Notes under the pieces: generated by a model
What the model was told of the DNA's origin: nothing
Seen by the model: the letters and a program-made list of their open reading frames with translations, nothing else
Databases searched by the model: none
Translations under genes and position numbers: made by a program
Virus record (IMG/VR): IMGVR_UViG_3300027977_000105
Coordinates: 1 to 34,925 of that record
DNA: 34,925 nucleotides
Direction: 5' to 3' (one strand)
DNA from: a virus
Shown: positions 1,455 through 30,398 of the stretch, one piece after another
How the letters are laid out: each line of letters opens with the position of its first letter
How positions within the stretch are numbered: position 1 is the first letter of the stretch

Positions 1455-3077
1455 ATGGCTGACATGAGAAAGTTACAAACACCTACACCTGAATTTGAAC
1501 AGATGACGCCTGTGTGGAAGAAGTGCAGAGTTGTCGTAAGCGGTCAGAGAGCTGTGCTTTCTCATGATAAATTAGTTACTGATAAAAATAACTTGCTTAT
1601 CCCTTTTAGCCCTACGATGGATCAAGCTCAGTTTGACTTCTACAAGAGAGAAGCTGAACTACCTGGTGTTAATTCACAATTTGTTAAACTATTAGCTGGT
1701 GGACTGTTAAGAAAACCACCTGTAATAGAGTACTCAGATAAGGTAAGTCAAGAAGCACGTGATTGGATTGAGAACAGTATTTCAGTTGATAGTGCTTCAT
1801 TGATTAGCTTTTTAGACACTATTTTGAATGAAGAGTTGGTGACCTCTAGAACATGGATATATGTAGAATATCCAAATTTACCTGAAGATAAAACCAAGTT
1901 AATGTCACAATCAGATTGGTTAGCTGTCAAGCCTTATCCTTTATTATGGGTAGCTGAACAAGTACTCAGAACTCAAACTGCAATTATTGATGGCATTAAG
2001 AAATTAACTCGCGTTGTCGTTAAGGGGTTAGTCGAAGAATTTGAAACAGAATTAGATGTACACCCTAAATACGTAGACACAATTTGGGTACATGAGCTTA
2101 TTGGCGGTCTTTATCAAATACGCGTATTTAAAGCTCACAAGGCAGAAACAATAATTGCTGCCACAGGCGAACTCAATAAAGCAATTAGTACAGTTGCGTC
2201 TACAAATTCAAGCGATCTTGATGATTACAAATTAGAAGACACTTTATATCCTAAGATGCACGGTGAGCGTATGAAGATGATACCTGCTTGGCCAGCTAAT
2301 GGTAATATTGATATTGTTGAGCCAGAGCTAGCTACTATCGTTGATAAAGAAGTTGCTCTATACAATAAAATAAGTAGACGTAATCACTTACTTTATGGCG
2401 CTGCTACCTATACACCATGGATTTCTAGTGATATGTCACATGATGATTTCAAACTAATTGTCAAGCAAGGGTTAGGTACATGGATACACTTAGATAAAGG
2501 TGACACTATAGGTGCTTTAACTACACCTACAGAAGCACTTACAGATTTAGATACTGCGATTAAAGCTGGTCTTGATGAGATATCAAAACTAGGTGTTAGA
2601 ATGTTAGCTAACGAAGACGCTACACAATCAGGTGTGGCATTGCAACTAAGAAGTGCATCTCAAACTGCTTTTATAGGAAGCTTTAATACTAAATTAAGTG
2701 CAGTTGTTAGAGATGTTTTAATACATATGATTAATCGTAGATACCCAGAAGAAATTGTTCAAGCAGATTTGAAATTTACATTATGCTCTGACTTTGATAC
2801 TATACCTTTAGGCTCTGAGTGGATTAAACTTATGGGTGAATACTATGAGAAGAACTTAATACCTCGTAGTGCATGGATTGAATTATTAAAAGCAAATGAT
2901 TTATTAAAGCCTGAATATGATGATAAGATAGCTAAAACAGAGATAGATGAAGATGAATTAACTACGGCTAGTTTAGCACAAAATGAAAGCGGATTAGACA
3001 CAGCGTCAAAGATTAAAGCAAGAGAAGCGCAACGAAAAGCTTCTAAAGGTGATAATAATGACTCATCCGAACCCTGA
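1455..3077 (+). CDS. Portal protein (DUF4055-like)
   Basis: A 540-residue protein of typical portal length. It would form the dodecameric ring at the capsid vertex through which DNA enters and leaves and to which the neck attaches. The N-terminal third has the pattern usual for DUF4055 portals: a W-K-K-C-R-V segment near residue 21, an aromatic F-D-F-Y-K-R-E-A-E-L-P stretch, then G-G-L-L-R-K-P-P near residue 83. A late segment (A-T-Q-S-G-V-A-L-Q-L-R-S-A-S near residue 390) matches the conserved helix region of these proteins. The C-terminus is charged and low in complexity. It lies directly after the terminase module and before head genes, as expected. The start has a GGGAG ribosome site. The DUF4055 assignment is from memory of family pattern. 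Confidence 0.85.
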   Translation: MADMRKLQTPTPEFEQMTPVWKKCRVVVSGQRAVLSHDKLVTDKNNLLIPFSPTMDQAQFDFYKREAELPGVNSQFVKLLAGGLLRKPPVIEYSDKVSQEARDWIENSISVDSASLISFLDTILNEELVTSRTWIYVEYPNLPEDKTKLMSQSDWLAVKPYPLLWVAEQVLRTQTAIIDGIKKLTRVVVKGLVEEFETELDVHPKYVDTIWVHELIGGLYQIRVFKAHKAETIIAATGELNKAISTVASTNSSDLDDYKLEDTLYPKMHGERMKMIPAWPANGNIDIVEPELATIVDKEVALYNKISRRNHLLYGAATYTPWISSDMSHDDFKLIVKQGLGTWIHLDKGDTIGALTTPTEALTDLDTAIKAGLDEISKLGVRMLANEDATQSGVALQLRSASQTAFIGSFNTKLSAVVRDVLIHMINRRYPEEIVQADLKFTLCSDFDTIPLGSEWIKLMGEYYEKNLIPRSAWIELLKANDLLKPEYDDKIAKTEIDEDELTTASLAQNESGLDTASKIKAREAQRKASKGDNNDSSEP

Positions 3078-6279: not shown

Positions 6280-6300
6280 CATTATTAAGAGGAGTAACTT

Positions 6301-7605
6301 ATGGCAGATTCATTATTGAACGAATTAGCGGCAATCACGCCGCTTCCAACAGATATTGTACCAGTAGCAAGAGGTGCAAATGACTTATCAAAAGCAACAA
6401 TCTTGCAAATGATTGAATCAGTATTTCCAAGAGATGTTAGTGGTAACTTTTTAATTAACTTTATACCTACTACAGGTAACGAAGCAGCTTTATTAGCGTT
6501 AACAGGAACAGCAGGCCAAATTGCAGTAGCTACCGATACAGGTGCACTTGTTTTATACAACGGAGTAGCAAACGGCGCTAAAGCAGTTAGACCGCTTATT
6601 GGACAGCCTGGGACACAAGCAGCCTTATTAGCATTAACAGGAGTCGCAGGTCAAATTGCAGTAGCAACTGACACTAAAGCTTTAGTTGTATATAATGGGG
6701 TAGCAAATGGTGCTGTTGCAATACCTTCAACAGGTGGCGGAGGAAGCTCTGACACATTAAAAGTAACATTAAACAGCTACGCAACAGTTATTGATGCAAC
6801 GAACTATACTAAGGTAATTGTAAAAATCGCAGCTGGGATGGCAGCTTTTTCAGTAACCAATACAGTAAAAATTAAATTAGCGGCTGCTAGTGATTTTAAC
6901 AAATTAGATATTCAAATTCATTTAGCAGATAAAGCTGCTAATTTAGGAGCTAAAGCCTATGTAGAGTTAATAGGTGCTGATATCGATGTTACTAACGAAA
7001 CGTTTTTCGTATTACAAGAGACTTACGAGCTATTTGAAGCTAATATAGGTATTACAACGCTAGTGCTAAAAGATACAGGATTTTTTAGTCATTTTGAAAC
7101 TACAATCTATTACGATAGTAATTGGGCTTCTTTTACAAATTTTGATCTAAATAAATTTAGTCGAGCAGTGTCAACTATTCCAAGTGATTTAAGCGGGTTA
7201 GTTGGAGAAATATTAACAACAACTGCAGCAAACTCGACAGGCAATGCAATTACATTAATTTCTAATACATTAGGTACAGCTAATAGTTTATCATTACCTA
7301 CAGGACTTTGGGAAGTAACATCTAGCTACTATTTAACAGCAACAGGTAGCGATGTAACTGTTACAGATATTGTGGCAAGAACAATAAGCAATCAAGCTAC
7401 GGATATGAACTATACGACAAACTACCTTGAAGCTGATTATCCAGGAGGTATGACAATTCAAAATACAAAAATACGTTCAATTGTCTCAAGAACAAAACTT
7501 ATTAATAATAACACTCAACAAACTTTTTGGAATACTTTTAAAGCAACCTATACAGGTGGTACGCTAAAGGTTTTCGGAGTTTTAACAGCTAGAAGGGTGT
7601 TATAA
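6301..7605 (+). CDS. Virion fibre-like protein with internal 45-residue duplication
   Basis: A 434-residue protein. Residues 1-40 repeat the anchor pattern of the preceding spike gene (L-N-E-L ... I-T-P ... D-I-V-P-V-A-R ... L-S-K-A-T). Two tandem copies of about 45 residues follow (from A62 and A107), each holding A-L-L-A-L-T-G, A-G-Q-I-A-V-A-T-D-T and Y-N-G-V-A-N-G-A. This short beta motif is common in phage fibres. After a Gly/Ser hinge (about 147) come beta-rich domains. The end (G-L-W-E-V-T ... F-G-V-L-T-A-R-R-V-L) resembles the C1q-like trimeric heads of fibre proteins. Its stop overlaps the next ATG by one base, so the two genes are probably translated together. Receptor binding is a reasonable guess but unproven. 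Confidence 0.7.
   Translation: MADSLLNELAAITPLPTDIVPVARGANDLSKATILQMIESVFPRDVSGNFLINFIPTTGNEAALLALTGTAGQIAVATDTGALVLYNGVANGAKAVRPLIGQPGTQAALLALTGVAGQIAVATDTKALVVYNGVANGAVAIPSTGGGGSSDTLKVTLNSYATVIDATNYTKVIVKIAAGMAAFSVTNTVKIKLAAASDFNKLDIQIHLADKAANLGAKAYVELIGADIDVTNETFFVLQETYELFEANIGITTLVLKDTGFFSHFETTIYYDSNWASFTNFDLNKFSRAVSTIPSDLSGLVGEILTTTAANSTGNAITLISNTLGTANSLSLPTGLWEVTSSYYLTATGSDVTVTDIVARTISNQATDMNYTTNYLEADYPGGMTIQNTKIRSIVSRTKLINNNTQQTFWNTFKATYTGGTLKVFGVLTARRVL
6484..6726 (+). repeat. Tandem duplication (135-bp period) inside the fibre gene
   Basis: Two in-frame copies begin at 6484 and 6619, each about 108 bases, encoding nearly the same 36 residues (A-A-L-L-A-L-T-G through V-A-N-G-A). Copy spacing is 45 codons. 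Synonymous differences between copies show the duplication is not very recent. Confidence 0.75.
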
Positions 7606-8924
7606 TGCCTAATGTTAAATTTTCGACAGCAGGTAATGCAGTATCTGCTCGAGGTTTAAATTTAAGTGAGATAGATACTTTTGAAATTGTAGAGCAACCT
7701 AATTCAATTACTACACCTGTTAATGTAGACACAACTATAAAAGATGTAGTTGAGCGAACTACGTCAGGTACAGGGATTGATAACTCATTTAAAATAAACC
7801 GTAAAGCAGGCTCTTTAGCAGATAATAATGGAACTTATAGCTCTAGTAACAATGCAATTGCTACAGTAGATTCGACAGGTAGAGTTTTAAAAGGCTCATC
7901 TAGCGGTTTAGTAGAGATTACTTATCAATCAACTTCAAGTAGATTTAAAGTTACACGTAACATGGTCAGCACAGGCACATCTGTAAAAATTATTTCGGAC
8001 TGGACAGCAAACAGCTTAGCTAGACATATGGACTTTAATGTTAAAACACTAATGACAGGTAAGTCGCCAACAGATATTAATTTACCTCAAGTAATGTATA
8101 TTGCGGCTAATTACAGTGATGGTAGTGCTAGTGCCATTGATAATCCAAATTTATTTTGTAGATTCGGACCAAATGGTAGCACAGATCTAAATTTTGAAGC
8201 AGTTTCATTAGCTAGTAGTAATGGCTATGCTTATCCTTATGTTCTTATTTCACCAAATCATATTTTAGGTTGCAATCATGCAGGTAGAGCTGACGCGCCT
8301 ATACATTTTGCAAAGAATGGTGTTACCTACACAGCAAATAGAACACAATATCGACAGGTAGGTGGAGATATGGCTATCTATCACATATTTCCATCCATTA
8401 CTGATATTTCACCAATACGGATGCTACCTGTTGATTGGCAACTATATTTACCTACTATGAATACTGAGACTACCCCCTTAGCAATTTCAACATTAATTCG
8501 TACAGCAAATTCGGGACAAGTACTTCCATTTACGCCAAAACAAGGTGGTGGTGGTGACACTGCAATTATTACACAGAATTCGCCTAAAATACGATTAGGT
8601 CAATTAAAATCATTAAAGTCACAATTTGGACAGAATAATAAATTCTTTATAAACGAGCTTTCGTCAAACCCTACTGTACGAAGTTGGCAATCTAATTTAT
8701 ATGATGGTGATAGCGGAAGTCCTCAATTTACTATAATTAATAATGAACTGTGTCTAATAGGTGTTATGTGGTATGGCGGTGGTGGTCGAGGTGACTTTGT
8801 AAGTAATTACTTAACAGAAATACAAGCGGCAATGAACTCTATTAGTACTGCTGCAGGTACAACTCAACGTACTTTAGGAACGTTTTCTGCTGGTGATTTA
8901 TCAGCATTCACACAATTTCCATAA
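7605..8924 (+). CDS. Big2-like domain plus trypsin-like serine protease, virion-associated
   Basis: A 439-residue protein. Residues about 60-122 look like a bacterial Ig-like Big2 domain (Y-S-S-S-N-N-A-I-A-T-V-D, then G-L-V-E-I-T-Y). Residues about 150-420 carry the three landmarks of a chymotrypsin-fold protease: I-S-P-N-H-I-L-G-C-N-H with H225 as probable catalytic His (H219 is the alternative), G-G-D-M-A-I-Y with D255, and Y-D-G-D-S-G-S-P with S370 as nucleophile. The order His, Asp, Ser and the spacing fit the fold. No signal peptide is seen, so it is probably carried on the virion. It overlaps the stop of the fibre gene (TAATG) and lies upstream of the MuF fusion. It could cut host surface proteins during adsorption, or mature the capsid, since no canonical prohead protease is visible. 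The fold call is by motif only. Confidence 0.75.
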   Translation: MPNVKFSTAGNAVSARGLNLSEIDTFEIVEQPNSITTPVNVDTTIKDVVERTTSGTGIDNSFKINRKAGSLADNNGTYSSSNNAIATVDSTGRVLKGSSSGLVEITYQSTSSRFKVTRNMVSTGTSVKIISDWTANSLARHMDFNVKTLMTGKSPTDINLPQVMYIAANYSDGSASAIDNPNLFCRFGPNGSTDLNFEAVSLASSNGYAYPYVLISPNHILGCNHAGRADAPIHFAKNGVTYTANRTQYRQVGGDMAIYHIFPSITDISPIRMLPVDWQLYLPTMNTETTPLAISTLIRTANSGQVLPFTPKQGGGGDTAIITQNSPKIRLGQLKSLKSQFGQNNKFFINELSSNPTVRSWQSNLYDGDSGSPQFTIINNELCLIGVMWYGGGGRGDFVSNYLTEIQAAMNSISTAAGTTQRTLGTFSAGDLSAFTQFP

Positions 8925-8941: not shown

Positions 8942-11900
8942 ATGAGTGATAATAGTGTTACCTCAATTGGTGACTTAACATTACGTAGAAATGCGTTAAC
9001 AAGACTTTATGCGGAACGATTAAACGGTAAAACTACCGTGATAATCAATGGGCATGAAGAGAATATTTTAAAATTAATGAAGAATCAGTTGAGTGCTAAT
9101 ATTAGTATTGCCGATAAAGCTACTAATTTAGCGCTTGACGCTGAGTTACAAAAGTTTTCAAATGATATGTATAGATTAACTGCAGGTGAGCTGATTGAGT
9201 TCGGTACAGATACTGCAGGTAATACTACAAACACTTTGAACAAAGGCTTTGGTAACTTTTTTCAAGCTGAACCAATTACTAGAACGGCGTCTGCGGATAT
9301 CGTTCTAAGTAAGCCTATTATAGGTAATGCAATATTAAAAGATATGTGGGGCAACCTGACTAGTGCAGAAAAGACACGTATTGAAGAACATATTCGTAAA
9401 GGATTAGCATCAGGTTTAAAAGAATCTGAAATAGTAGACACAATGAGTAAAACTTTTAATTTAACTAGAAGTCACTCATCTGCAATTGTAGTAACAGCAA
9501 CTACCAGTGTTTACGCTCAAGTAGACCAAGCTGTTTATGAACAAAATAAAGCATTTTTACTAGGATATCAGTATGTAGCAGTGTTAGACAGTAGAACTTC
9601 TAAAATATGTTCGCATAGAGATGGTCAAATTTATCCAGTAACAGATAAATCACACTTACCGCCTGCGCATATTAACTGTCGTAGTACTACAATACCTGTA
9701 CCTAAGTCTTGGGAGGATTTGCTTAAAAATGACGCTGTAAGACAAGCTAGATTTGTTAATACAGCTCAATTAACACCAGATCAAATTTTAGATTATGATG
9801 TAAAAGCATCTAAATGGTTTACAGGTACACCATTTGCAAAAGTCACTTATAATGATTGGCTTAAACGTCAACCAGAAGATGTTCAATTAATACATTTAGG
9901 TGATTTTGATAAATTGCGTATGTTTCAAAATAACCAACTAGAAGTTAAACAGTTTGTATCGCCTAAAGGTATGTCACTAGGCAAACGTGAATTACGTGAA
10001 ATAAGTGGTGAGCAAGGTACATCAGGCGGGTATAACGGTTCTATTGACGGTACATCTGCAGTATTTAATAACGCTAAGGCTAAGCTAAACTCTTTAGTAT
10101 TAGGTTATACTGGACCTGATGAAATTGTCAATAGCATTGCTGCTCAAAATCGCATGCTAGATTATTATGAATTACAATCAAAAGAACTTAATGGTAGACT
10201 TAGTTTGACTAACTATCGTGGTATTTTAATTAATAATAAAGCAATGACTAAAACACGTGTGTTACAATCACCGCCTAATGAAGATCAATTATTGTTTAAT
10301 CCAATGACTAAACGATATGAAGATGCTCGTATTTATCAACCTAACATTGCTGCTGAAGTAAGAGCTCACAATTTAATTGATTCGAGTAAATACTTGACCG
10401 ATAAAGATAAGGAGTTCTTACACAACTTTCATGAGAAAGTTAAAGGGCGAATCGGTATGAATGAAGCCAGCGTTGCTTCTGATAATTTACGTGTAGTGTT
10501 TGAACGTGCAAGAAAAGATGGTGAAATTTGGGGTAACTTCAAAGCCGTGCTAAATAGTGAAATGCGATACTCAGTAACTAACGTCTCTGAATACATTGAA
10601 ACTAACATTCGAGGTGCTTCTGATTTCTTTGTAAGGTTAAAACAAACAGAGTATTTAGACCCTGTATTAGGTTCAGTCCAACTTGAAGATTTAGGTAAGA
10701 ACTTTCATAAGAATATTATTGCTAAGAATGATTGGGAGATTAAGGTAATCCCTAAAATTGCTAGCGAATTAAGACCTTTCTTAGATAATAATTTACCTTT
10801 AAAATTACGCAATAGATTGACTAAGTTTCAGCGTGAAGAATTTTATCGAAAATTTGCAGTTCAACTATCAAAATCAGATGCGCCTGATAGAGATCAAATG
10901 GCAATTTCGTTAGGTCGTGAATTGTATAACTTAGCTAATTATCGAGGTTCTAAGCAAGAGTGGTACGAAGAAGGTGTAAAGTTACTTGATAGAGCAGAGT
11001 CTAGTGGATTATACGCCTTAGAAACATTTGGTGTTAAAAAGAGGAGAATGCGCAGTAGAAATTCAGGACAGTATTTTGGACAATATTACGATACAACTAG
11101 TATGAATATCGTAATAAAAGACCCTAGAATATTAGACTACGCTAAAACCAGCCGTAAAGTTGATGTAGGTTTTCGTATAGGCGTTAATGATGCTTTTGGT
11201 AATAGCTTAGAGGTTAGAGAAGGCTTTAAAACTTACTTCTTTCAACGCAATGGATTATACTATGATTCGCAAATACCAATAACGTCATCACATAGTTTTA
11301 CTGACTTTCCATTAGAAGCTGTTGATAAAAGTTTAGTAGATGCCTTGAATTGGGCTTCAAAAGCTAAATATTCAGTTGATGAAGAGTTTTATGATTTCAC
11401 AAGAAAGCTTTTAGAATTTAAAGATGATAAAGGTAACGCAAAGTATTTTGATAACTTAAATATTTATCGTGATTACATCACTGCTAGAGGTGATGCTTAT
11501 GAACGCTTTAAAGCAATGGAGTATTACCGAGCAAATAAGCTTAAATTCGGTAGTCATGCCTTTGTAGACCATCGTGGTCGTATATACGATGCTGGGCTAA
11601 TCAGCCCACAAAGTGGTGAAACATTCCGACCATTTTTAAATAGCGCTGTAGCTAAACCTTTAGGCGAGCAAGGCTATTTTGTTCTATTAGATAATATTGG
11701 CTCATTTCTAGGTGGAGTTTCAGACGAGTTTGAAGGTAATTATAATGGCTTAACTAATAAAGGTCACATTCAAATTGCTAAGAAATGGCAACCACAATTA
11801 ATACAAATGGGTAATCGTATCTTACGTGGTAAGCCTCAAGACATTAGAGACTTATTAGAATCAGACATTGTTCAAATGGTTGATGGTGAAGAGCTAGGTA

Positions 11901-13597
11901 AACTAATGCGTTATGGGTTAGAGTTAGCTAGAATTGATGCCCATAAAGGCTCATTAAATAACTATATGATATCCCTAGCTTTAGAGCAAGATGCTTCATC
12001 TTCTGGTGCTCAAATTATTGCATTAACAACGCGTAATAAACAACTGGCAGAATTGAGTAATGTTGTACCTACAAATCAAAAGCGTAGGCTATATGACGTT
12101 ATTGCTAAAGCAACTTTTGATGACCCTAGGTTTAAAGTTCTAAATGAACGTTTAGGATTAACTGAAAAAGACTTAAGAAAAGCGGCTAAAAACTTCTCTA
12201 TGGTTAAATTGTATGGTGCTGGTGAAAGAACATCTGTATTAAATGCAGAACGTAAATTATCAAAAGTGTTAGACTTAAAAGACAATTTATTAGTTATTAA
12301 ATCAGAGCAACGTGACAAGATCTTAGCTGAAATATCCGCAAGAACTGCAAGAGTGGAACGTTATGATCCTGAAGGCGCTGAAGAGTTAAGACAATTGCGT
12401 AAACAAGTTAAAGATATTTTAGACAAAGGGCTTAATCCTGGTGATGAGATACTTGATGAGTTATGGTTTATTGACCCTAAGACAAAAGATGTCATGGAGA
12501 AATTAACACGTAATTATGATGATATCATTACACCAAAAGACTTTACAGCTGTAGGTAAAATTATGGGTGACTATCTAACAGAGATGACACCTATATTAAC
12601 TGACTTTACGAAGTTCTTTGGTAGGGTGGCAGAAGAGTTTCTAACTACAGCTAAACCTTCACAAGGGGCTTTTGATTGGTTTGGATTATTACGGCTTAAA
12701 GCCTTTGATAAATATAAAGAGGGTTATCGTATAAATCAGTGGTTAGGCGTAATGCTAGGAATTGACTCTAAAGTCCCATTATTAGAGCAACAGCTAAATA
12801 AGATACCTGGATACAATCCTAACAGTACTGTAAGCGATATTCTATTAGGCGCTAGAACAGCAGGCAATCAACCGACTGCAATCAAGAAAAGCTTTAAGAT
12901 TTCTATTGGAGATGTTTATAAAAAGATTGACTTATTTAGCTTTGGTGTTAAGACTGACATACCTAAAATCTGGACTAAGATACCTTGGGTTAACTTTGAC
13001 GGTACAATTTTAGATCAGGTTTATAATCAAAGATTTGAAGAAAGACTTGCTTATAAGAATAAAGAAGGTTTATGGGTTAATAATATTATTCAAGTAGATC
13101 AAAAGACTGAGCCTACTTGGTTTGAAGAATTAATCAACGAAAACAATACGCTTAATGATATGACAGATGCAACAGCTGCAAGAACTGCGTATGCTGTAAA
13201 TGGTAACCATAGTAACGATGCAACTATTGTTAAGAATTACCACTTATGGGGTGCTAAAAATAATGTTATGACTAGTACAGTTCATGATGCTTTCTTTAGT
13301 AACGTAGCAGATATGTATGCATCTAAAGTAGAATTAAGAAAAATCTATGCTAATTCTGTAGATAAAAATACAATTAAATTGACATTAGATTTATTAAGAA
13401 AACGAGGACTACCTAAAGAAGCTTATGATAAGTTTTTAAATGAAGCTATTGATAAAGGATTAATCCCTGTTGCAGGAAGAAGTAAAGTAGGTGGTAAAAT
13501 ACTTACTGAAAAAGATATATTAACTAAAGAAGATGTTCTTCAAGAAATCCGAGACGATTTTTGGAATGATAATTTTGGTTTTTATGGTATTAATTAA
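8942..13597 (+). CDS. MuF-type minor head protein fused to a T7-like single-subunit RNA polymerase
   Basis: A 1551-residue fusion. Residues about 160-260 are a MuF/SPP1 gp7-like head morphogenesis domain: L-D-S-R-T-S (215-220), C223, D227-G228, P240-P-A-H-I-N-C-R-S248. The usual trailing segment Y-N-D-W-L-K-R-Q-P lies near residue 300. From about 560 to the end is a T7-family RNA polymerase: G678-V-K-L-L-D with E-S-S-G-L; D876-x-x-G-R880 (T7 D421-R425); then P-L-G-E-Q-G-Y-F; motif A with D1017 and S-S-G-A-Q (T7 D537); motif B R1079, K1083, M1087, Y1091-G1092 (T7 R627, K631, M635, Y639-G640); H1423-S-x-D1426 (T7 H784-D787); motif C H1448-D1449 (T7 H811-D812); an aromatic C-terminus. All catalytic residues are present, so activity is likely. 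The ATG follows a strong AGGAGG. Inference: MuF places the polymerase in the head near the portal for delivery with DNA. Confidence 0.88.
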   Translation: MSDNSVTSIGDLTLRRNALTRLYAERLNGKTTVIINGHEENILKLMKNQLSANISIADKATNLALDAELQKFSNDMYRLTAGELIEFGTDTAGNTTNTLNKGFGNFFQAEPITRTASADIVLSKPIIGNAILKDMWGNLTSAEKTRIEEHIRKGLASGLKESEIVDTMSKTFNLTRSHSSAIVVTATTSVYAQVDQAVYEQNKAFLLGYQYVAVLDSRTSKICSHRDGQIYPVTDKSHLPPAHINCRSTTIPVPKSWEDLLKNDAVRQARFVNTAQLTPDQILDYDVKASKWFTGTPFAKVTYNDWLKRQPEDVQLIHLGDFDKLRMFQNNQLEVKQFVSPKGMSLGKRELREISGEQGTSGGYNGSIDGTSAVFNNAKAKLNSLVLGYTGPDEIVNSIAAQNRMLDYYELQSKELNGRLSLTNYRGILINNKAMTKTRVLQSPPNEDQLLFNPMTKRYEDARIYQPNIAAEVRAHNLIDSSKYLTDKDKEFLHNFHEKVKGRIGMNEASVASDNLRVVFERARKDGEIWGNFKAVLNSEMRYSVTNVSEYIETNIRGASDFFVRLKQTEYLDPVLGSVQLEDLGKNFHKNIIAKNDWEIKVIPKIASELRPFLDNNLPLKLRNRLTKFQREEFYRKFAVQLSKSDAPDRDQMAISLGRELYNLANYRGSKQEWYEEGVKLLDRAESSGLYALETFGVKKRRMRSRNSGQYFGQYYDTTSMNIVIKDPRILDYAKTSRKVDVGFRIGVNDAFGNSLEVREGFKTYFFQRNGLYYDSQIPITSSHSFTDFPLEAVDKSLVDALNWASKAKYSVDEEFYDFTRKLLEFKDDKGNAKYFDNLNIYRDYITARGDAYERFKAMEYYRANKLKFGSHAFVDHRGRIYDAGLISPQSGETFRPFLNSAVAKPLGEQGYFVLLDNIGSFLGGVSDEFEGNYNGLTNKGHIQIAKKWQPQLIQMGNRILRGKPQDIRDLLESDIVQMVDGEELGKLMRYGLELARIDAHKGSLNNYMISLALEQDASSSGAQIIALTTRNKQLAELSNVVPTNQKRRLYDVIAKATFDDPRFKVLNERLGLTEKDLRKAAKNFSMVKLYGAGERTSVLNAERKLSKVLDLKDNLLVIKSEQRDKILAEISARTARVERYDPEGAEELRQLRKQVKDILDKGLNPGDEILDELWFIDPKTKDVMEKLTRNYDDIITPKDFTAVGKIMGDYLTEMTPILTDFTKFFGRVAEEFLTTAKPSQGAFDWFGLLRLKAFDKYKEGYRINQWLGVMLGIDSKVPLLEQQLNKIPGYNPNSTVSDILLGARTAGNQPTAIKKSFKISIGDVYKKIDLFSFGVKTDIPKIWTKIPWVNFDGTILDQVYNQRFEERLAYKNKEGLWVNNIIQVDQKTEPTWFEELINENNTLNDMTDATAARTAYAVNGNHSNDATIVKNYHLWGAKNNVMTSTVHDAFFSNVADMYASKVELRKIYANSVDKNTIKLTLDLLRKRGLPKEAYDKFLNEAIDKGLIPVAGRSKVGGKILTEKDILTKEDVLQEIRDDFWNDNFGFYGIN

Positions 13598-13637: not shown

Positions 13638-14354
13638 ATGACACCAGAAGAAATTGCAGCAAAAGAAGCTGAAGATAAACGCTTAGCTGAAGAAGCAGAA
13701 GCTGCAAAAAAGAAAGAAGAAGAAGATGCTAAGTCCAAAATGACTGACCAAGAAAAGCTTGATGCATTAGTTGCTGCAGAAGTAGCTGCTAAACTTAAAG
13801 ACATCAAAGGTAAATTGGATAACTCTTTTGCAGAACGTGATGCTGCTCTTAGAAAGGCTGAAGCTTTAGAGAAAAAAGAGCGCGATGCCGAATTAAAAGC
13901 ATTAGAAGATGCTGGCAAGTTTAAAGAAGCATTTGAACTTAAACTAGCTGAAGAGCAAGCTAAGTATGCTGATTTAGAGTCTAAATTCAAAAGCTTGCAA
14001 GATACGAATCTTGAGATTACTAGAAATACTAGTCTTAAAGATCACTTATCAGGCGTTGACTTTAGAAATAGTAGAGCTTTAGAGATGGCCTTTAACCAAA
14101 TATTACCTGAAATCATTAAGAATGATAAAGGTGAATGGGTGCATAGGTCAGGAATGTCTATTAAAGACTATGTCAAAGGCTTTGCTAAAGATGAAGCTAA
14201 TAGCTTCTTAATTAAACCTAAAGAAAGTTCAGGTGGTGGAACAACACCAGCAGGAACTACACCAGCAGGAAATGGTAAAACTTCATTATTAGGTAAAACA
14301 ACAGCTGAGATTTTAGCTATGGCTGAAGCAGGTCAATTACCTAAAAGTAAATAG
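13638..14354 (+). CDS. Capsid scaffolding protein
   Basis: A 238-residue, highly charged, Ala/Glu/Lys-rich protein. Residues 1-130 are predicted continuous helix and coiled coil. A conserved-looking region follows, including L-K-D-H-L-S-G-V-D-F-R-N near residue 133. Then comes a Gly/Thr/Pro linker (S-G-G-G-T-T-P-A-G) and a short C-terminal helix ending K-S-K, the usual place for capsid binding. This is the standard form of phage scaffolds, which fill the prohead and then leave. It sits directly before the capsid gene. The start has an AGGAG site. The high charge also produces a long meaningless frame on the opposite strand. Confidence 0.85.
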   Translation: MTPEEIAAKEAEDKRLAEEAEAAKKKEEEDAKSKMTDQEKLDALVAAEVAAKLKDIKGKLDNSFAERDAALRKAEALEKKERDAELKALEDAGKFKEAFELKLAEEQAKYADLESKFKSLQDTNLEITRNTSLKDHLSGVDFRNSRALEMAFNQILPEIIKNDKGEWVHRSGMSIKDYVKGFAKDEANSFLIKPKESSGGGTTPAGTTPAGNGKTSLLGKTTAEILAMAEAGQLPKSK

Positions 14355-14461: not shown

Positions 14462-15697
14462 ATGAGAACAAATCTACCTGCACAACCTGCAGGCTTATTA
14501 GGCGCTTCGGAATATGCATTACAAGAATCAATTAACGCATTTTCAGAAGAACTCTACACGAATGCTAAGAAATTAGTAAACACAGGTATTGCTGGGGCTG
14601 ATGCTGAAATCAACACTTCTGGCGAAACTTTTATTGGTCAATTACGTTGGAAGAAACCACTAGATGCAAAAATCAATGTTATTTCATTGACAGATGCATC
14701 TGAAGGTGAAAAGACTGTAATGTCAACTGATTACGCTAAGTATGTTAAAACAGCTCGTTCACACGGTGCGCGTCAAGTTAACATGGCTCAAATCGTAACT
14801 CAAGAAGATGGTCTACAAAAGATTGCTTCTGATTTTGCTGAAACACGTATGCAAGATGAGCATAATGCTTTGTTTGCAGTATTGCGTGGTGTTATGATTT
14901 CAGAAGCTTTAATTGGTACTCGTGGTAGTGGTGGTCAAGGTTATGACAATGATCCCAAATCAGCTACTCATGGCTTCTACGTTGACTTAGGCGCTACTAA
15001 ATTAATTGCTGATGCTTCAGCTATTAAACAAGGTGCTATTCGTGCTGAAGGTTTTCTTGACGCATTAGGTATGGGTTTTAAAGACTATGAGCCTGAATAT
15101 GCATATTTGACAGTAACTCCAAGACTGTTAGCATCATTCCGTTCAGCAAACTTAGTTGATCAAGATCGAGTTACGGAAGGTAATCTTGAATTTCAAACTA
15201 TCTTAGGTGGTAAATTCCGCTTAATCAATACACGTCAAAGCTTCAACTTTAGTACTGTTGAGCTTGATAACTTAAACAGCACAAACGTTTCTACAACTAA
15301 CTCAGGTGTAGACTCTAACGCAGGTCCAGATATTATCGGCACACAATGTGCTATGATTATCTTACCGAATGCTATTTCATTTAATCAAATTCAAGTACCA
15401 ATGCCAGTTGAACTTGAGCGTAATGCAGCTTCCTTTAATGGTGGCGGTACTACTGATTTATGGTATCGTTGGGGTTATGTTGCTCATCCACGCGGATACT
15501 CATGGGCTGGTTCAGAAGACAAATTTGTAGCTGATGCTGATTTCCAAAAAGTAGGTACTGCCGCTGAGCAACTAGCAGGTAATGGCATCAGCTTGAATGC
15601 AGGTGCTTCTGTATTAGGCGCAACTACTAAGGGTGCTTTTGTACGTAAAGCTCAATCAGTATTAAGCTTAAGTATCTTACCTGTATTCCACTCATAA
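14462..15697 (+). CDS. Major capsid protein
   Basis: A 411-residue protein directly after the scaffold gene, of usual length for an HK97-fold capsid subunit without its own long N-terminal delta domain. Features typical of the family are a helical N-terminal arm (E-S-I-N-A-F-S-E-E-L), a long spine helix (A-S-D-F-A-E-T-R-M-Q-D-E-H-N-A-L-F), an A-domain segment (Y-A-Y-L-T-V-T-P-R-L-L), and a late W-Y-R-W-G-Y-V-A-H-P-R-G motif common near the end of phage capsid proteins. The separate scaffold explains the lack of a cleavable delta domain. The ribosome site is AAAGGAA. Identification rests on position, length and these motifs. Confidence 0.87.
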   Translation: MRTNLPAQPAGLLGASEYALQESINAFSEELYTNAKKLVNTGIAGADAEINTSGETFIGQLRWKKPLDAKINVISLTDASEGEKTVMSTDYAKYVKTARSHGARQVNMAQIVTQEDGLQKIASDFAETRMQDEHNALFAVLRGVMISEALIGTRGSGGQGYDNDPKSATHGFYVDLGATKLIADASAIKQGAIRAEGFLDALGMGFKDYEPEYAYLTVTPRLLASFRSANLVDQDRVTEGNLEFQTILGGKFRLINTRQSFNFSTVELDNLNSTNVSTTNSGVDSNAGPDIIGTQCAMIILPNAISFNQIQVPMPVELERNAASFNGGGTTDLWYRWGYVAHPRGYSWAGSEDKFVADADFQKVGTAAEQLAGNGISLNAGASVLGATTKGAFVRKAQSVLSLSILPVFHS

Positions 15698-18803: not shown

Positions 18804-18822
18804 TAGGCTGATTAAAAGCTCT

Positions 18823-18937
18823 CTCGCCAAAAATTTTCGGGCGAGGGAGACCGAAGGCTATCCGCGAAAAAATTTTCGGAGTTTCAAGTAATACTCGTAT
18901 AATAAACTATTCAGAGAAACGGTAAAAATTTCGCAGA
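18823..18937 (+). repeat. Non-coding element A (left copy), related to element B at 30228-30342
   Basis: The 183-base gap between 18803 and 18987 holds this element. Aligned by hand without gaps to 30228-30342, it is about 64% identical over 115 bases. The best blocks are the first 36 bases (32 of 36 identical), the GTTTCAA block at 18881-18896 (14 of 16), and TTTCGCAGA at the end. A 10-bp stem (18819-18828 with 18840-18849, one G-U pair) encloses an AAAAATTTTCG loop. A TATAAT lies at 18898-18903 without a good -35. The element starts 19 bases after the preceding gene, ends 49 bases before the next, and is GC- and A-tract-rich unlike its surroundings. Function unknown: a regulatory RNA, promoter/terminator or recombination site are all possible. 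Confidence 0.7.
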
Positions 18938-18986
18938 AATCCCAAACGCGCTAGTCGCAATCAAACAACAAAAGAAAGGAGTAAGT

Positions 18987-19300: not shown

Positions 19301-22300
19301 ATGTCAGGTATCTTAATTGATGTCGACGTAGACAGTAAAAAGTCGGAGAAGGATCTCATAAATATAAACAAGAATCTAATTCAACTTTCTAAGTCTACAG
19401 AGTTGTTGAATAGTTCATTCACAAAAGCATTTAAGAATAACTTTAATTTCAATAAAAGTACTTCTGAAATTAAATCACAAACTAATGCTCTTAAGGCAAT
19501 GGGTACAGTTGGCTTTAATAGTTTTAATCAAATTGGTAGTGGTGCAGCTAAATCAGCATCAGCTGTAGCTTCACTTGGTACTGCAATTAAAAGTGCTGTA
19601 GTAGGATTAACAGCTTTTGCTTCTGCAAAAATAAGCTTCAATATTTCAGATGAATTCACTAATTTAAACAATAAATTAGCATTAGTTGCTAGAGAAAATG
19701 AAAACTTATATGCAACTCAATTGAAACTATCTAAACTTGGCGCTAACACTAGAGCTACATTAAAGAATACTTCAGAGTCTTATTTTGCATTAGCTAGAAG
19801 CTTAGATAAAGTTAATTTCTCGCAAGATAGAATTTTAGGTTTAACTAAAACAGTTAATCAGAGTATTGCGCTATCAGGTGGTTCAGTTGAAAGTACAACT
19901 GCAGGTTTAATTCAATTTAGCCAAGGTCTTGCTGCAGGTGCTTTACGTGGTGAAGAGTTAAATTCAGTGATGGAACAAATTCCAGCTTTAGCTAAAAATA
20001 TTGCTAAAGGTATGGGCGTCACTATTGGTGAGCTCAGAGGATTAGCTCAAGAAGGTAAAGTAACTACTGATGTTATTGCAAAGGCTTTAGAGAAAACATC
20101 TAAAGCTATTGATGCTGAGTTTAATAAAACAGCTATTACAATTAGACAAAGTGGCGTATTGCTTAAAGATGCCTTTAATCAGTTGTTTTATGAAATTGGG
20201 AGATCTATTAGTGGTGCACAAAATGGCTCTAATTTAGCTATTTATATATCTTCACTATCAAAATCTATTGCTACATTTGCAACAGATGCAGGTAAGAATC
20301 TTGAAGTAGCTAAACAAGTATTTTCTAATTATATTAATTTAGTAAATCGCTACAGCAAAACAAGCTTTATTTTTAATGCAGCACTTTCAAGTGCAGGCGG
20401 TATTGCCAATCTTTCAGGTTATGGTAAACAATACTCAGCAATTAAAAAGATTATTGATTTAATAGATAGGTTTAAAGATAAAGATAATGTTGTTGGTATC
20501 AAAGAAACTGCTACTGAAAATGCGGCTAAGTTTTTAGAGACATTTAAAAACTTAGGTCAAGTTATACTTGCAGTAGGTAGAGTCTTAGGTTCAGTCTTTG
20601 ACAATATAGTTTATAAATTAGGCTTAGCTACATTAGCTTTAACTAGTTTCAAACAAGATTTGATTATAGTAAGTAAAGCAACATTATTTAAAATAGATTC
20701 AAATATAGGTGCGTTCACACGTCCGTTACAAAGAGCTATTGAAGGCTTTACTGATGCAATTACATTAAATCGTGTTTTTAGAACAGAATTTGAAAGATCA
20801 ATTGCAGCATTAGCTAATTCTAAAGACTTGGTATCATTGCGTAAAAATCTTGACAATGTTTCTGAAGCATTAGATAACAGAAACTTTAAAGGATTTTCAG
20901 GTATTGGTCTTGAAATTGAAAAAATAGCCACTAAGGGCTTGTTTAAAGGTGAAAGCTTTTTAACTAAGCTAGGATTGGTAGAACCTAAATTATTGAGAAT
21001 TTCAAACATTAACTATGCTGGTATTATCTCTAGCTTTAAGACATTAGCAGCTACAATTAAAATATTATTTACAGATGTAATCGCAACAAGATTTAGTGAA
21101 CCAATTGCCAGAATCTATACTTTTGTTGCTACATTAGCTACAGCTTATAAGACAGCAATCATTGCTGCTTTTGTAAATGGCGATGCAACTGAAACAGGTG
21201 TAGAAATTGCAAAATGGGTTAAAGACCAAGTTGAACAGATTAAAGAGGCAATCGTATATAATTTTAAAGGTGCTGGTGAAGCTACTGCCTTATCTGTATT
21301 AGGTTTCTTTGGTAAAGGTCTTGCAGCAATGAGCGCTGGTATTACAACATTGCTCAAGGTTGTTTTAGGTTTTATTCGTGAAATTAATATTGATGATCTT
21401 TTAGTAAACCTATTTGATGGGATTGCAAATTTCTTCTCATCAAATCAAGCAAATAAATTAGGCGATTCTATTGCTGCAGGAATATCTAAGTCAATTAATG
21501 ACAGGCTATCTTTAGGTAAAATCTTATTACAAACATTAGCTAGTATTAATTTGTCAGGCTTAATATTTTCAATGACAGCTGCTTTTGTATCAGTATTTAC
21601 ATTTGTGTTTAAGACACTTACAGCAACAATTGCAACCTTAGCTAAAGATTTATCGTTAACTGAAATTATAGTTAATGCATTTAGTAAATTTGATAACTTA
21701 GTAAGCTTGATTAATTTTAACAGTGCAGGTAAAGTTATTGGCGAAGCCTTTAGAGATTTATTTTTAATCGTAAAATCAGCAACTGATGAAATTACTAGTA
21801 CATTGTTCACAATAGATTTAAACATAGTATTTAATACATTTGTAAACAGTATTAATAAATTGTGGACAAAACTTATCAGCTTTATTCAAGGACTATTACA
21901 AGGTGCGCTTGATATTAATGTGTTTGAAATTTTATTTTCTGGTAATTTTAGCCTTACAGGATTTGTTACAAGTAAAATAGCTAAAGTATTCAATGAAGTT
22001 TCTAACATGTTAGCTTCAGCAGCTAAAGCACTCAGCTCTGATGCTGCAGACACTTTAAGCAAAAGCATTGCTAAGGCAATTGCTGGTATTGAAATTTTAG
22101 AAACAGACCTTGAGCTACTCTTTGTTAAACTATTTAAAAAGCTAGACTTCTCTAAGTTTGCAGTATCATTAATCAATTTGATATCTAGTGTATTTAATTT
22201 CGTGGCTAAAACTTTAAGTCGTATTATCGAAAATTCATTTGAAGCTTACCCTGTATCTAAACTCTTTGATTTATTATTCAGTGGTATTTTTGCTGTACTT

Positions 22301-25300
22301 AATAAGTTTGACGGAGTTGCAATAGGTAAGTCTATTGGCAGATTATTTAGCTCTTTATTTGATAGTGTTAAAAGCACTGCGCCTGATTTAGATTTGTTTA
22401 CTTTTGATGTTCAAGCTATATTTAACAAGTCGAAAGAAGCTATTAAATTAGCAATAGATAAAATTAAAGGATTTTTAAAAGGTGTTGTAATTGGTACATT
22501 AAAGCTAAATTTCTTTGAAGAATTTTTATACTTAAATTTTAATGATTTAGAAGCAATTAAGGCTAAACTCTCAAGTATAATCACGCCTGTTAAAAGTTTA
22601 ACAAATAGCTTTAAAACGCTTGTAGATTCACTTAAAGACACTATCGAAGGTTTTAAAGAATTTGGCAATCTAATTGTTGAGAAATTAAAAGCAATCAGTT
22701 TCAAATCAATAGGTATATTCTTAGGTCGTAACTTAAGAGAAGCCTTATTATTTGCGGTAAGCAGTATTTCAGCTATTTCAGATGAGATTGCGCCTAATAA
22801 AATATTTAATACAGTTGTAAGTATTCTTAATGGCATTTCAGAGCGTATTCAATCATTCGCAAAAGGATTTGCAATTGGTGCTTTAGACTTAAACTTCTTT
22901 GATAAATTTCTATTAATAAATTTTAACAATTTAAATGGCGTTAAGCGTAAAATAGTTGATATTATTAATGAAGTTAGAAAATTCTTTGATTCCGTAACTA
23001 ATGTATTCTCGTCAAAAGGCGCTAAAGAATTATCTAAAAATATTGCAAAAGAACTTGGCAATTCAATTAAAGGTAAAATAAGCTTTATTCAAGATGTTGT
23101 TGACTTGTTTGAGAAAATTAACTTTTCAAAACTTGGCGTATCTGTTGTTAAAGCATTTAGTAGCATGCTTAAGTTTGTAAACAATACCTTGCAACAAACA
23201 ATTAAACAAGTATTTGGTAATTTAGACTTAACAGATGTTAGTGTTAAGTTCTTAAAAGAATTACAAAAGCTTGTTAAAAGCATTAACACATATGATATTG
23301 GTAAGGCATTAGGTCAACTCTTCTATACAATTAAAACTCAGTTAAGCGAGTTGTTTAGTGATAATACATTTAGTTTTAACTCAGACGCGGTAATACGCCA
23401 ATTTGACAAACTCTATCAAATAGTGCTTAAAAAGCTAAAAGATTTTGCTAAAGGATTTATTGTAGGTAGCAAAAACTTAAACATCTTTCAAGAATTCTTT
23501 GTAATTAATTATGAATTCTTTAAACCTGTAATTGACTTTACACGTAAAGTTATTGCTACACTAAAATCACTATTTATCACAAGAGATAAGTTTAATCTCT
23601 TTGAAGGTATCTTTTCAATTAACGATAAAATCGTTGATACAATTAAGAATGTATTTAATCAAGTAACTGGATCAGTAACTATCTTAGATAGTGTTAAAGA
23701 GTATATCAAAGCTTTTGCAGAAAAGATTAATTATTACTTCTGGTTGATTTATGACAAAGTTGTAGGTCGTTCATATTGGCCTGATCTTATCGACGGTATT
23801 ATTTCAGAGACTGATAGGCTTGACTCTGTAGTAGATTACTTTGTATCATTTAAGAATAAATTAACAAGTATGTTTAAAGACTTATCTATAAACAACTTTA
23901 CTATTGATTTATCATTCCTTAAAGATACAAACATAGACCTTGAAAAGTTTGCTATTAAAGCTGGTGCAGTAATCACTTCATTGTGGCTATCACTAGTTAA
24001 TAATTCAGCTAACTTTACAGCAATTTTAGCTGTTAACTTAGTATCAAGTATTATATCAGCTTTAGATTCAGTTAAGCCACAAGCAGTAGCAGCTACTGTT
24101 AAATTCTTAGGTGATGTAGCAGCTGAGATTGCTAGCTCATTAATTAAAAGTTTATACTCACTTATAGGTACAGTTACTACGTTTTCAAGTGCATTTATTG
24201 CAGAGTTCTTGTCACAATTTGGAACTATTGGAAAATTGATTGGTGGTGTATTTGAAGCCCTACCTGAATCTTTGAAGACTATTGTAGGCTTAAGTATAGC
24301 AAGTTTGTTTGGTGTTTTTGGTAAGGATATTAAAAAGTTAGCTAACAAGCACATTTTAAAACCACTGTTGAAAAGCATTGGTGATATTTTTAAAAATAAT
24401 AAACTATTTTCAAATTTAATTATGGGAAGTAGTGGTGTTACTGCTGGCTTAGGCGTAGCCTTAATTAGTATGATTAAAGGTGATAGTACGCTAGCTACTG
24501 TGACGAATGGTATAGGTGCAGCCTTGCTTGTAAATATGTTTACAGGTGGAACAGTCCTTAACAAATTAATGAAAGATATTGCTAAAACACTTAAAACAGC
24601 AATCTTTGGCGCTACAAAAGAAACTAACGACAGTGAAAAAGGTAAGGGCTTAATTGACTCATGGTTAGTACAGCCATTGAAAGATGGCTTTGAAGCTATC
24701 AAACCGACTTTAAAGGCAATGTTTAAATCTATATTTAAATTCTTAGGCACATTGTTTGATTACTTACCTGAAGGTGAAACTAAAGATATCGCTAAGGCTA
24801 TTGTAAAGGACTTAATGAAGATTCCTGAAACAATCAAGGCGAATTTTAATCAATACAATAAGGGCAAGATAAACCTCAAAGACTTATTCTTTAAAACAGG
24901 TAAAGCTAACGTAGATGTTTTTGGTGATGGTCAATCAAGCAAACAACCTAAAACTAAAAATACACCTCAATTTGACGGTTTTGATTTTGGTAAAGATGAT
25001 ACATTCAAAAAATCTACAGATAAAATTAGCAGCAATGCTGATTTTGTAATAGCATCTTTGAAAAGTAAATTTAAAGCATTAACAGGCAATTTATCAGCAT
25101 TGTTTGTAGATTTATACAAACGAATTAATATCAGGGTTCGTGAAATACTCAGTTTTGTATTTAACGGATTTAGCACTTTCTTTACAGATTTAGCAGGATT
25201 ATTAAGACTTAAAACTAGATCTTTACTAGCTATTATTGCAGGTATCAGTATTGTATTTGCTTCATTCAATGCTAGCGCAGCGACAGGTGATTCAGCTGTA

Positions 25301-28300
25301 GGTGGATTAATAGGCTCTGTAGGAAGTCTTATTGGAGTATTTGCTGGATTGTATGTAGGGTTAGCTACAGTAGCTGTAGGGTATTCATTCTTGCAAGAGC
25401 TATTTGCTAAGAAACCATTAAGTGCAATATTTTCAAAAAGCAGTGATACATTTGCAACATTAGATTTCTTTACTAGCAGATTTCAAAAATTAGGTAAAGT
25501 TGTTGTAGAATTTTCAGAAAAAGCCTTTACTTACATAGGTGAAAAACTAGCAGTAGCATTAGGCTACGCATTAGTTAAAACTATTAACTTAGGTACGGCA
25601 TTTGTTAGATTAAGAGCTCAATGGGCAGCTTTCTTAATACTTTACAACACAGATAAACCAGCTGCAATTGATAAGCTAGGCACTAAGCTAGATAAGTTGT
25701 TTGAGCCTATAGGTAAGTTAGGTGAAGCTATTGGTAAATTTATTGTATTAGCCTTTAGAGCAATAGCTGTGGTATTTAGGTTAGGCTTTGCTTTGATTAG
25801 CTTAAAAGGTCTTTTAGTTATAACTGCAATAACAACAGCTGTAGTAGCATTATCAGCAGCTTTTGGTGATTCTGAAAGCTATGTAACTAATTTTGGAAGA
25901 TCACTTAACAGCTTATTTGGAATCAAAAATACACTATCAGTTGAAATACAAACCACGGAAGCACTTAATAAGATTCGTGTGTTAGATGGTATATTAGATA
26001 AAACTACAGGCAAACCTATTAAATTAGACTTTACACAAGCACTTAAAGAGATTGACTTTGCTGCTTTAAGCGACAAAGAAGGATCTTATTTAGCTGAAAT
26101 GAGTAAAGCAAATATTGAACGTATTAAACAACTTAATAGTATATCTAAAGAAAATGAAGGCTTAACTGAAGCTCAATTAGCTGAATTGAAAACGCTAGTA
26201 AGTAATCAAGCAAAGATATTGCGTGAAGCGCCTAAGTTTAGTACACCTAAAACGTTTGAAGAGATTGGTAGTAGATTAAAAATAGCTCTAGAAGATTCAC
26301 AAACAGGCTTCTGGAAAGGTGTTGGGAGAGTTACAAGTAATGTTGTCGGATTCTTTAACAGCGATGCTAGAAACGTAACTGCAGCAATTGCTAAAGATAC
26401 TTTATTAGCTTCTGAAGAAATAATTCCAGTTGATAATATTAATGCTCAAATTAGCGTGTTAGAAGCTAAGATGAAAAAAGACTTGAGTAATGTTGACATA
26501 ATCCCTGAAACAGGCTTCTTTGTAACTACTCGAAAATTTGCAACACTATGGGGTAAAACATTAGATGATTTATATAATGTTGCTGCTACTGCGACAAGAG
26601 AGAAAGTATTTCCAGATGCTTTAAATAAAACATTATCAGCTAAATTAACGCCAGCTTTAGAATTTCTTGAAGCTGCTGAGCCTGTATTAGGTAAAGACGA
26701 TAAAGTATTTAAAGGTGTAAAGGATAATTACTTTGAGCTTATAAGACTGATTGAGAAGCACAATAAGCTAACTGATAGCGATTCAGCTACAGGGTTACGT
26801 AGTAAAGATGTTATCGAGCAGCGTACAGTAGCTTTACTGAATCAAGTTGAAGCTGTTAGGCAATTAGCCTTAGAGCAAACACGTAGAGCTAACTCTGTTA
26901 GAAATGTTGTTAATAAAGAAAAGGCAGATGGTAATTATTCACCTTCAGCACCTATTGATGAAAATGCATTTGGTACTAGTATTGCTAGAAACTCATTATT
27001 AGCTTCGCAAGGACTTGCTAAATATCAAGAACAACTACCAGGTGTAGCTAAAGGTTTAATTGGAATCACCAAGGCTGGACTTGATTTTGGTACTAAAATG
27101 CTTACAGAAGCAAATTCTTTTGATGAGTATACTAAAAACATATCATTGTCTTTAGAGAATATTTCAACGCTTTCAACACAAAATATATTAATAGCGTTTA
27201 ATAAAGATAGTGAAAAGACTCTTAAACAATTGCAGAAAATACGTATAGACTCAGCTGAAGGTTTTGTTTATAGATTAAGGATGGTAGGTAATAAAGAAAT
27301 TGTTAAAAACTTAGCAGAAATAGCTAAGTCATTCTTATTTATAGGATCAGCGTCAAGTAAAGTTTTAAGCGCTTTTGAAGGTTTAACCCAAACGAATCTT
27401 AACAATTTACTTAAAATAGACCCTGTTGCATTTTCAAAATTAGCTAGACTTACGAAAGATCTAGACAACACTAGAGCAATCTTAGCAGATACAGCTGTAT
27501 TAGACCCTAGAAGAAATGATAGAGCACGTGCAGTAAGTAACGCGGAAGAAGCTGTAAGGCAATATCGTTTAGAATTAGTTCCAAGATTTGCTGAATTGTC
27601 TGAAGGGGACTTACAAACTAGAATTGATAAGTTAAATATCTCTACAGAAGTTAAGGTAACAGATTTTAATTTTGATAATCAAGCAGCACTAAGTAAGTCA
27701 ATAGAGTACGTTGAAAATTTAAATAAACAGTTAGCAGAAACGCGTGCAGGAAATAAAAACGGTATTTATAACGATAAGGTTAAATCTCAAATAATTGATA
27801 TTGAAATTGCAATGGAAGCGTTAGCTAAGACTATTAACTTAATTCCTAAAATTAAAGATAGTAGCAAAGAAACCGCTAAAACGTGGATAGAAACATTTAA
27901 TGAATCGTTTAGTAAAATAGGTTTAAACTTTGATGCTAATGCTTTTGCTAAACTAACTGATCAAGGTAAGATTGCAATTGTTACTTTACAAAAAGAAGCT
28001 GGAACATTATGGGCAAAAATTCAATCTAAGAAATATAAGAGTGAAGATAAGTTTAAATTCTTAAAAGACTTAAATGAAATTCAAGTTAAAGTCGAAGACG
28101 TTTCTAAAGATTGGAAAGAGTTATTTAATGATAAATTTACAAGAGTAGGCTTAAGTGTTGATGTAAATGATTATGCTGCAATGGGTAATGATGCTAGACT
28201 AGCTGTGCTAGAGTTGCAAGAACGTGCAGATGAAATTAATAAGCTAATGAATCAAATTGGTTTAACTTCAACACAAAAAGTAGATTTCCAAGCTAATTTA

Positions 28301-30227: not shown

Positions 30228-30342
30228 CTCGCCAAAAATTTTTGGGCGGGTGATACCGAAGGCAGGAAAAAATTTTTTCGTGGGCGTTTCAAATGATACT
30301 CCAACAATACTCTGAATAGTAACGCGAGCAATTTTTCGCAGA
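30228..30342 (+). repeat. Non-coding element B (right copy), related to element A at 18823-18937
   Basis: The 244-base gap from 30155 to 30398 holds a terminator-like hairpin, then this element, then a 56-base leader. The element keeps the same order and spacing of blocks as element A. Here an outer stem GCCTTC/GAAGGC (30223-30228 with 30258-30263) encloses an inner CGCC/GGCG hairpin with a loop of A and T tracts. Element A lacks the outer stem. GTTTCAAATGATACTC lies at 30286-30301. It is not a tRNA despite the T-loop-like GTTTCAAAT. A TATAAT at 30375-30380 lies downstream without a convincing -35. Confidence 0.7.
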
Positions 30343-30398
30343 TTTTCATTCGGGCGGAGTAGACACCACGTACTTATAATATTAAGAAGGAGAAGATT

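Follow-up and report, generated by a model that had tools for sequence, protein, structure and literature searches.

A conserved fusion of a MuF minor head protein with a T7-type RNA polymerase: a candidate virion RNA polymerase of long-tailed phages

Phages that bring an RNA polymerase (RNAP) into the cell within the virion are well documented, and the types described include N4-type enzymes, the multisubunit enzymes of jumbo phages, those of crAss-like phages, and the tail-tape-fused enzyme of P23-45 (PMC10770324, PMC12390700, PMC7598289). The N4 virion RNAP, gp50, is a podovirus protein of about 3500 aa that lacks MuF and has different flanking domains, and its promoters take the form of extruded DNA hairpins (PMC4496689, PMC12633501); one survey states that virion RNAPs of the N4-like kind are confined to N4-like phages (PMC5512222). 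In Thermus phage P23-45, gp96 is a virion RNAP fused to the tail tape, and gp64 is a non-virion RNAP (PMC10770324). MuF proteins are known from a separate line of work as head components located at the portal, inside the head: in SPP1, the MuF protein gp7 is attached to the portal, each capsid holding one or two copies (PMC5576092), and for enzymes carried on MuF, delivery into the host is the presumed fate (PMC5512222). The cargoes described in the consulted passages of these surveys are toxins and effectors such as nucleases, ADP-ribosyltransferases, PBECR and RelA/SpoT domains; no RNA polymerase is among them, and the word polymerase is absent from PMC5576092 (PMC5576092, PMC5512222).

Here we analyse a viral gene that joins a MuF domain to a T7-type RNAP, hereafter MuF-RNAP. 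The window, that is, the whole stretch of DNA examined, is a complete IMG/VR record, a fragment of 34,925 bases that runs from terminase through tail genes and also encodes a head-tail adaptor, a tail terminator, a major tail protein, and distal tail and fibre proteins. The features discussed below are as follows.

23-1054: terminase, partial match
1455..3077, + strand: portal protein, presumed partner of MuF (phrog_145, E 3e-48)
8942..13597, + strand: MuF-RNAP fusion gene, one open frame of 1551 aa, supported by homologues
9377..9694, + strand: MuF domain (Phage_Mu_F, PF04233), residues 146-251 (Pfam E 1.7e-14, invariant residues)
9695..10675, + strand: conserved linker, residues 252-578, no domain assigned
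10676..13594, + strand: single-subunit RNA polymerase fold, residues 579-1551 (structure model, Foldseek and VIA-align)
11567..11581, + strand: DxxGR motif, residues 876-880, T7 D421-R425 (homologue conservation, alignment to T7 RNAP)
11990..11992, + strand: catalytic Asp of motif A, D1017, T7 D537 (homologue conservation, alignment to T7 RNAP)
12176..12217, + strand: motif B, R1079-G1092, T7 R627-G640 (homologue conservation, alignment to T7 RNAP)
13283..13288, + strand: motif C, H1448-D1449, T7 H811-D812 (homologue conservation, alignment to T7 RNAP)
13638..14354, + strand: head scaffolding protein (phrog_206, E 3e-7)
14462..15697, + strand: major head protein (phrog_247, E 5e-21)
19301..30154, + strand: tape measure protein, 3617 aa (position and size; a tape measure lies at the same place in relatives)

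MuF-RNAP shares traits with each of the described systems. Like the N4 enzyme, it is a single-subunit RNAP of the T7 superfamily (here a likely virion enzyme) accompanied by a second phage RNAP and by a few early promoters (candidates here) per genome, but it is 1551 aa long with an N-terminal MuF, its modelled fold resembles T7 more than N4 (Z 30 versus 20), and the candidate early element has a linear consensus of 24 bp. The likeness to P23-45 lies in a long-tailed phage joining an RNAP to one of its structural virion proteins, in the second, free phage RNAP, and in two distinct promoter motifs, candidates here, of which the AT-rich one serves the vRNAP in the early region of P23-45 and, by analogy, might serve MuF-RNAP here. 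However, the P23-45 enzyme is a two-barrel RNAP (DxDxD) related to cellular RNAPs and fused to the tape measure, whereas the enzyme of the window is T7-type and sits on the MuF minor head protein, the tape measure being a separate gene. The jumbo-phage multisubunit and crAss-like enzymes are likewise virion RNAPs but are related to cellular two-barrel RNAPs and not to T7 (PMC7598289, PMC10770324); jumbo phages also encode a second, non-virion RNAP. With the MuF-enzyme fusions, MuF-RNAP shares an N-terminal MuF as carrier for an enzyme and a gene located in the portal-head region (PMC5576092, PMC5512222). What appears to be new is a T7-type RNAP on a MuF carrier; virion-borne RNAPs and MuF-carried toxins are known already. 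A preliminary description of this DNA had called the arrangement a third route to virion-borne transcription, a count overtaken by the N4, jumbo, crAss-like and P23-45 types; its companion remark, that it knew of no described MuF-polymerase fusion, agrees with the searchable full-text literature, in which we found none.

The reading of the gene itself as a single 4.66-kb frame was borne out, the frame being uninterrupted over its whole length. Pfam assigns Phage_Mu_F with 54.9 bits against a cut-off of 29.6, and RNA_pol at residues 994-1112 with an E value of 1.3e-7, above the curated cut-off; comparison with PHROGs returned both head morphogenesis (1.9e-54) and RNA polymerase (3.6e-18). Every residue named in the preliminary description is present: the MuF signature (D216, C223, D227-G228, P240-P241, H243, C246-R247), the DxxGR motif, which reads D876-H-R-G-R880, and the polymerase positions D1017, R1079/K1083/Y1091 and H1448-D1449, which align to T7 RNAP residues. 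In the sequence alignment, D876, R878 and R880 correspond to T7 D421, R423 and R425; D1017 and Y1051 to D537 and Y571; R1079, K1083, Y1091 and G1092 to R627, K631, Y639 and G640; and Y1361, H1448 and D1449 to Y739, H811 and D812. Among 84 homologues, the window included, D876, R878, R880, D1017 and K1083 are conserved in all 84, Y1091 in 83/83, H1448-D1449 in 71/71, and R1079 is an arginine in 75/84. In the MuF part, D216, C223, G228, P240, P241, H243, C246 and R247 are conserved in 83/83 homologues and D227 in 79/83. On this sequence evidence, chance is excluded as the source of the combined MuF and RNAP residue pattern.

The preliminary description had further claimed a complete T7-family polymerase and had proposed comparing a structural model of this part with T7 RNAP and N4 vRNAP. 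An AlphaFold model of residues 500-1551, built with 42 homologues in the alignment, has a mean pLDDT of 80.8 and a pTM of 0.81, and the 50 Foldseek matches listed for it are mitochondrial and T7 RNA polymerases. Using VIA-align, the best match was T7 RNAP (Z 30.4, 617 residues, rmsd 7.7), with an alignment that spans model residues 80-1052, or protein residues 579-1551, and reaches T7 residue 883, its last. Another T7 RNAP chain gave Z 26.1 over 531 residues with an rmsd of 3.4, yeast mitochondrial RNAP gave Z 28.5, and N4 mini-vRNAP gave Z 20.1. Thus, by modelled fold and by motifs, the C-terminal part of MuF-RNAP is a full single-subunit (T7-type) RNA polymerase. A model of the N-terminal residues 1-520, with a pTM of only 0.41, yielded no Foldseek match with E <= 0.001, which argues neither way.

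We then asked how widely the fusion is kept. In a tblastn search of 50,697 phage records, EBPR siphovirus 1 encodes a full-length relative with 45.7% identity, and the roseophages DSS3_VP1 and DSS3_PM1 (Naomviridae) encode full-length relatives with about 32% identity; all three carry the same full-length gene as the window. DSS3_VP1 differs in having dU in place of dT in its DNA (PMC12697855), and EBPR siphovirus 1 in having a group I intron and an HNH gene inside motif B of the MuF-RNAP gene. In all three phages, the annotation of the homologue goes no further than minor head, head morphogenesis or head protein. A single-protein query with MuF-RNAP found no match in the IMG/VR viral contigs, but an alignment query did find relatives, at least 328 of them, and the RNAP part alone as the query retrieved at least 576 contigs. 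Loci retrieved with the RNAP part alone, which avoids a bias from retrieval through MuF, were used to examine the fusion: MuF lies in the same frame as the RNAP in 69 of the 70 loci with enough upstream DNA. An apparent natural split at L165 (same contig as L075) was discarded as a counterexample, since its linker shows a local indel. In 20/20 related records examined, the only MuF match is the one inside the fusion frame. A search for prophages in 84,980 bacterial and archaeal species genomes found only 2 loci, both in one gammaproteobacterial MAG; one of the contigs is exactly as long as a related virus record, so that they point to no host. Judged from these sequences, the architecture is real, conserved and old; its retention in 69/70 loci and at about 31% identity in isolates argues that the physical link is useful.

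The gene order portal - MuF-RNAP - scaffold - major head is conserved in relatives. In DSS3_PM1, the MuF-RNAP gene adjoins the portal gene but for one tRNA, and in EBPR siphovirus 1 it is next to the portal by gene order; in the window, it lies between portal and scaffold, 5.9 kb past the portal because extra ORFs intervene. The 3617-aa tape measure marks a long-tailed (siphovirus-type) virion. Tail length scales with the tape measure at 0.15 nm per residue, which for this protein would mean about 540 nm, an unusual length for a tail.

Besides MuF-RNAP, searches with PF00940 revealed a free T7-like RNAP (about 745 aa where its gene is uninterrupted) in all relatives of at least 56 kb examined. 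Both DSS3 phages encode one, as do 25/25 further long contigs, those found through element 1 (see below), and the gene usually lies upstream of a DNA polymerase-exonuclease-primase/helicase module; the window fragment ends short of the region that holds it in relatives. In a maximum-likelihood tree with long branches and arbitrary rooting, from which we claim no origin, the fused RNAPs form a clade of their own (99/98) and the free RNAPs another (100/100) near T7 and SP6, with N4 vRNAP on a very long branch. An origin of the fused enzyme by duplication of the free one finds no support in these separate, long-branched clades, and no recent duplication is evident.

Two promoter-like elements emerged from the relatives. 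Element 1, a 24-bp sequence (tGCGgAAAaannGGTATCTTATAT followed by GA), was detected as a repeat within the DNA that precedes the free RNAP gene, where 1-3 copies occur on the coding strand in 13/13 relatives examined, across a GC range of 0.35-0.62. In the five complete genomes, which were searched whole, its exact 14-mer is expected fewer than 0.001 times per strand and is observed 2-3 times in four; the fifth, G005, has the variant CATCTTATATGA three times. Most copies precede the free RNAP by about 1-10 kb, one copy lies elsewhere in three of the five genomes, and the structural modules of all five have no close match to the element; in the other genomes, the search covered the DNA leading up to the free RNAP gene. 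When 2.9 million viral contigs were scanned blind with GCGSAAANNNNGGTATCTTATATGA, 87 stretches were returned, and among the contigs of at least 50 kb found by element 1 alone, 24/25 encode MuF-RNAP, whole or in part, the 25th being a 53.8-kb fragment. The consensus drawn from 117 distinct sites runs from -23 to +1, and the 32 nt on its 3' side fold into a hairpin that is more stable than shuffled sequences (-3.6 versus -1.5 kcal/mol). Element 2, ACCCGTTAAATTAACCC, occurs in several copies per genome and, in many relatives, sits 4-9 nt past the MuF-RNAP stop codon; a match with up to three mismatches lies within 450 nt of this stop codon at 53 of 71 loci. Judging by these sequence patterns, element 1 is likely an early promoter with its start at GA, and element 2 likely a promoter of the free RNAP. 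That the fused enzyme would use element 1 and the free enzyme element 2 is our inference from position and from the two-motif precedent of P23-45 (PMC10770324); as the two RNAPs always co-occur, the co-occurrence of element 1 cannot tell one from the other.

Neither element was found in the window, which does not contain the early region, nor in DSS3_VP1, and no element 1 was found in the part of EBPR siphovirus 1 searched. Motif finding in DSS3_VP1 gave no separate early element; this phage has a nine-copy, T7-like repeat of its own, TAATAGGnTnCGTTAAAGA, a promoter candidate of the form TAATAGG(G/T)T(G/A)CGTTAAAGA(A/G)GGG.

L004 (NC_055826.1), positions 2238, 2329, 6576, 7404, 19198, 19233, 19322, 29392 and 46547: copies of the T7-like repeat of DSS3_VP1

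G005 has a further repeat, CCTGAACATGGCTCTAAACTGTTC, at 33435, 34058, 38517, 38549, 38606 and 60508, with a 5-bp stem that shows paired changes (GAACA/TGTTC, AGACA/TGTCT, GAGCA/TGCTC); three of the copies are directly upstream of its free RNAP gene. A hairpin in the window, AGTACTGTGTACT at 13611, was considered as an N4-type promoter and set aside, as 3-base-loop hairpins in the window and its relatives are near chance expectation.

Taking sequence, structural model and analogy together, we consider it probable, at roughly 0.8, that MuF-RNAP is a virion RNAP, that its MuF domain is the means of delivery, and that it starts an early-to-late cascade with the free RNAP. Expression with the head operon and the MuF tether make a virion polymerase the best explanation, and a sole MuF within the head operon, a free RNAP, and an early-region element in relatives are what such a cascade would lead one to expect. 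The enzyme would be made late, within the head operon, and its N-terminal MuF would dock it at the portal vertex inside the procapsid; at infection, it would exit the particle together with the first DNA or before it, presumably passing the ~540-nm tail unfolded and refolding thereafter. Independently of the host enzyme, the T7-type C-terminal part would then transcribe early genes from element 1. In nearly complete relatives, these genes include the free T7-like RNAP, which would in turn read the rest of the genome from element 2, so that the vRNAP would act first and the non-virion RNAP second. The virion-polymerase proposal of the preliminary description thus gains from the architecture, the sole MuF in the head operon, the second RNAP and the early element, and stands apart from its claim of a third route. 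A broader picture, which we offer tentatively and rate a little below even, is that of a widespread, hitherto unrecognised siphophage group with largely host-independent transcription, whose portal-bound MuF-RNAP is fed through a tail as long as about half a micrometre, refolds, starts at a double-stranded promoter of 24 bp before a few early genes, perhaps pulls the genome in, and hands over to a second T7-type RNAP with its own promoter.

It is possible, but unlikely, that MuF-RNAP is packaged and yet element 1 is read by the host RNAP or by the free RNAP, the fused enzyme acting otherwise on the incoming DNA, for example by pulling it in through transcription or by priming replication. Element 1 ends in TATATG, which resembles the sigma-70 -10 hexamer, and it co-occurs with both phage RNAPs; moreover, DNA entry of T7 is driven by transcription. 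Against a reading by the host, the 117 sites share no -35 hexamer at the right distance, whereas they do share 24 bp outside the sigma-70 scheme, and copies of the element cluster before the free RNAP gene, a place that calls for an enzyme already there at entry. Even if the DNA were pulled in by transcription, this would be the work of a virion RNAP. Sigma-70 may nevertheless contribute to early transcription.

We regard as improbable a role late in the same cell, with MuF-RNAP acting on late genes and the fusion being a byproduct or its parts being separated by a protease. This would suit the location of the gene in the late head operon and the promoter-like element right after its stop codon in most relatives, but nearly complete relatives already have a separate RNAP, and a byproduct is hard to reconcile with a fusion kept at 69/70 loci and down to ~31% identity in isolates. 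Still less credible is a degenerate RNAP domain with a structural role only: its sequence is far from T7, as the modest Pfam score indicates, but the catalytic residues are invariant in 71-84 sequences despite about 50% divergence elsewhere, and group I introns occupy the most conserved motifs, as in genes needing function, insertion at catalytic motifs being typical of genes that must stay functional. Besides EBPR siphovirus 1, five further relatives have 13 group I intron matches within the MuF-RNAP gene stretch, five of them in one genome. An assembly chimera or annotation artefact, conceivable for a fragmentary metagenome contig, is refuted by hundreds of independent contigs that have the same frame, and by its presence in EBPR siphovirus 1 and in the isolates DSS3_VP1 and DSS3_PM1.

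A virion polymerase held through MuF would point to an independent solution for carrying a polymerase in the virion, via a modular portal-side domain that also holds toxins. It concerns a large, widespread siphophage group in which the gene is called just a head protein in isolates, inviting re-annotation. As DSS3_VP1 and DSS3_PM1 can be grown, the claim is testable now, and promoter candidates are at hand for two new T7-type polymerases. For phages with dU-DNA, there may be a particular reason to bring their own polymerase, in that the host enzyme may read such DNA poorly.

Some observations on individual loci may be added. The record with five group I intron matches in the MuF-RNAP gene is L306 (G035:C1:37000-47000), 104 kb long, and the fragment L307 has four. 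In L082:10001-15322, and likewise in L081 and L083-L085, an in-frame insertion of 230 aa follows residue 1115, directly past motif B, and has no Pfam match. Between portal and MuF-RNAP, the stretch 4012-8924 of the window encodes a 755-aa protein that matches a family of phage pectate lyases (phrog_11548, E 5e-73) and, after it, an Ig-like domain protein; several relatives have little or nothing at this site. The tape measure gene is flanked by two similar intergenic stretches, at ~18815-18960 and ~30230-30390 of the window, which have in common the motifs TCTCGCCAAAAATTTT(C/T)GGGCG and GTTTCAA(G/A)T(A/G)ATACTC and are perhaps a phage-specific regulatory element of the window's subgroup.
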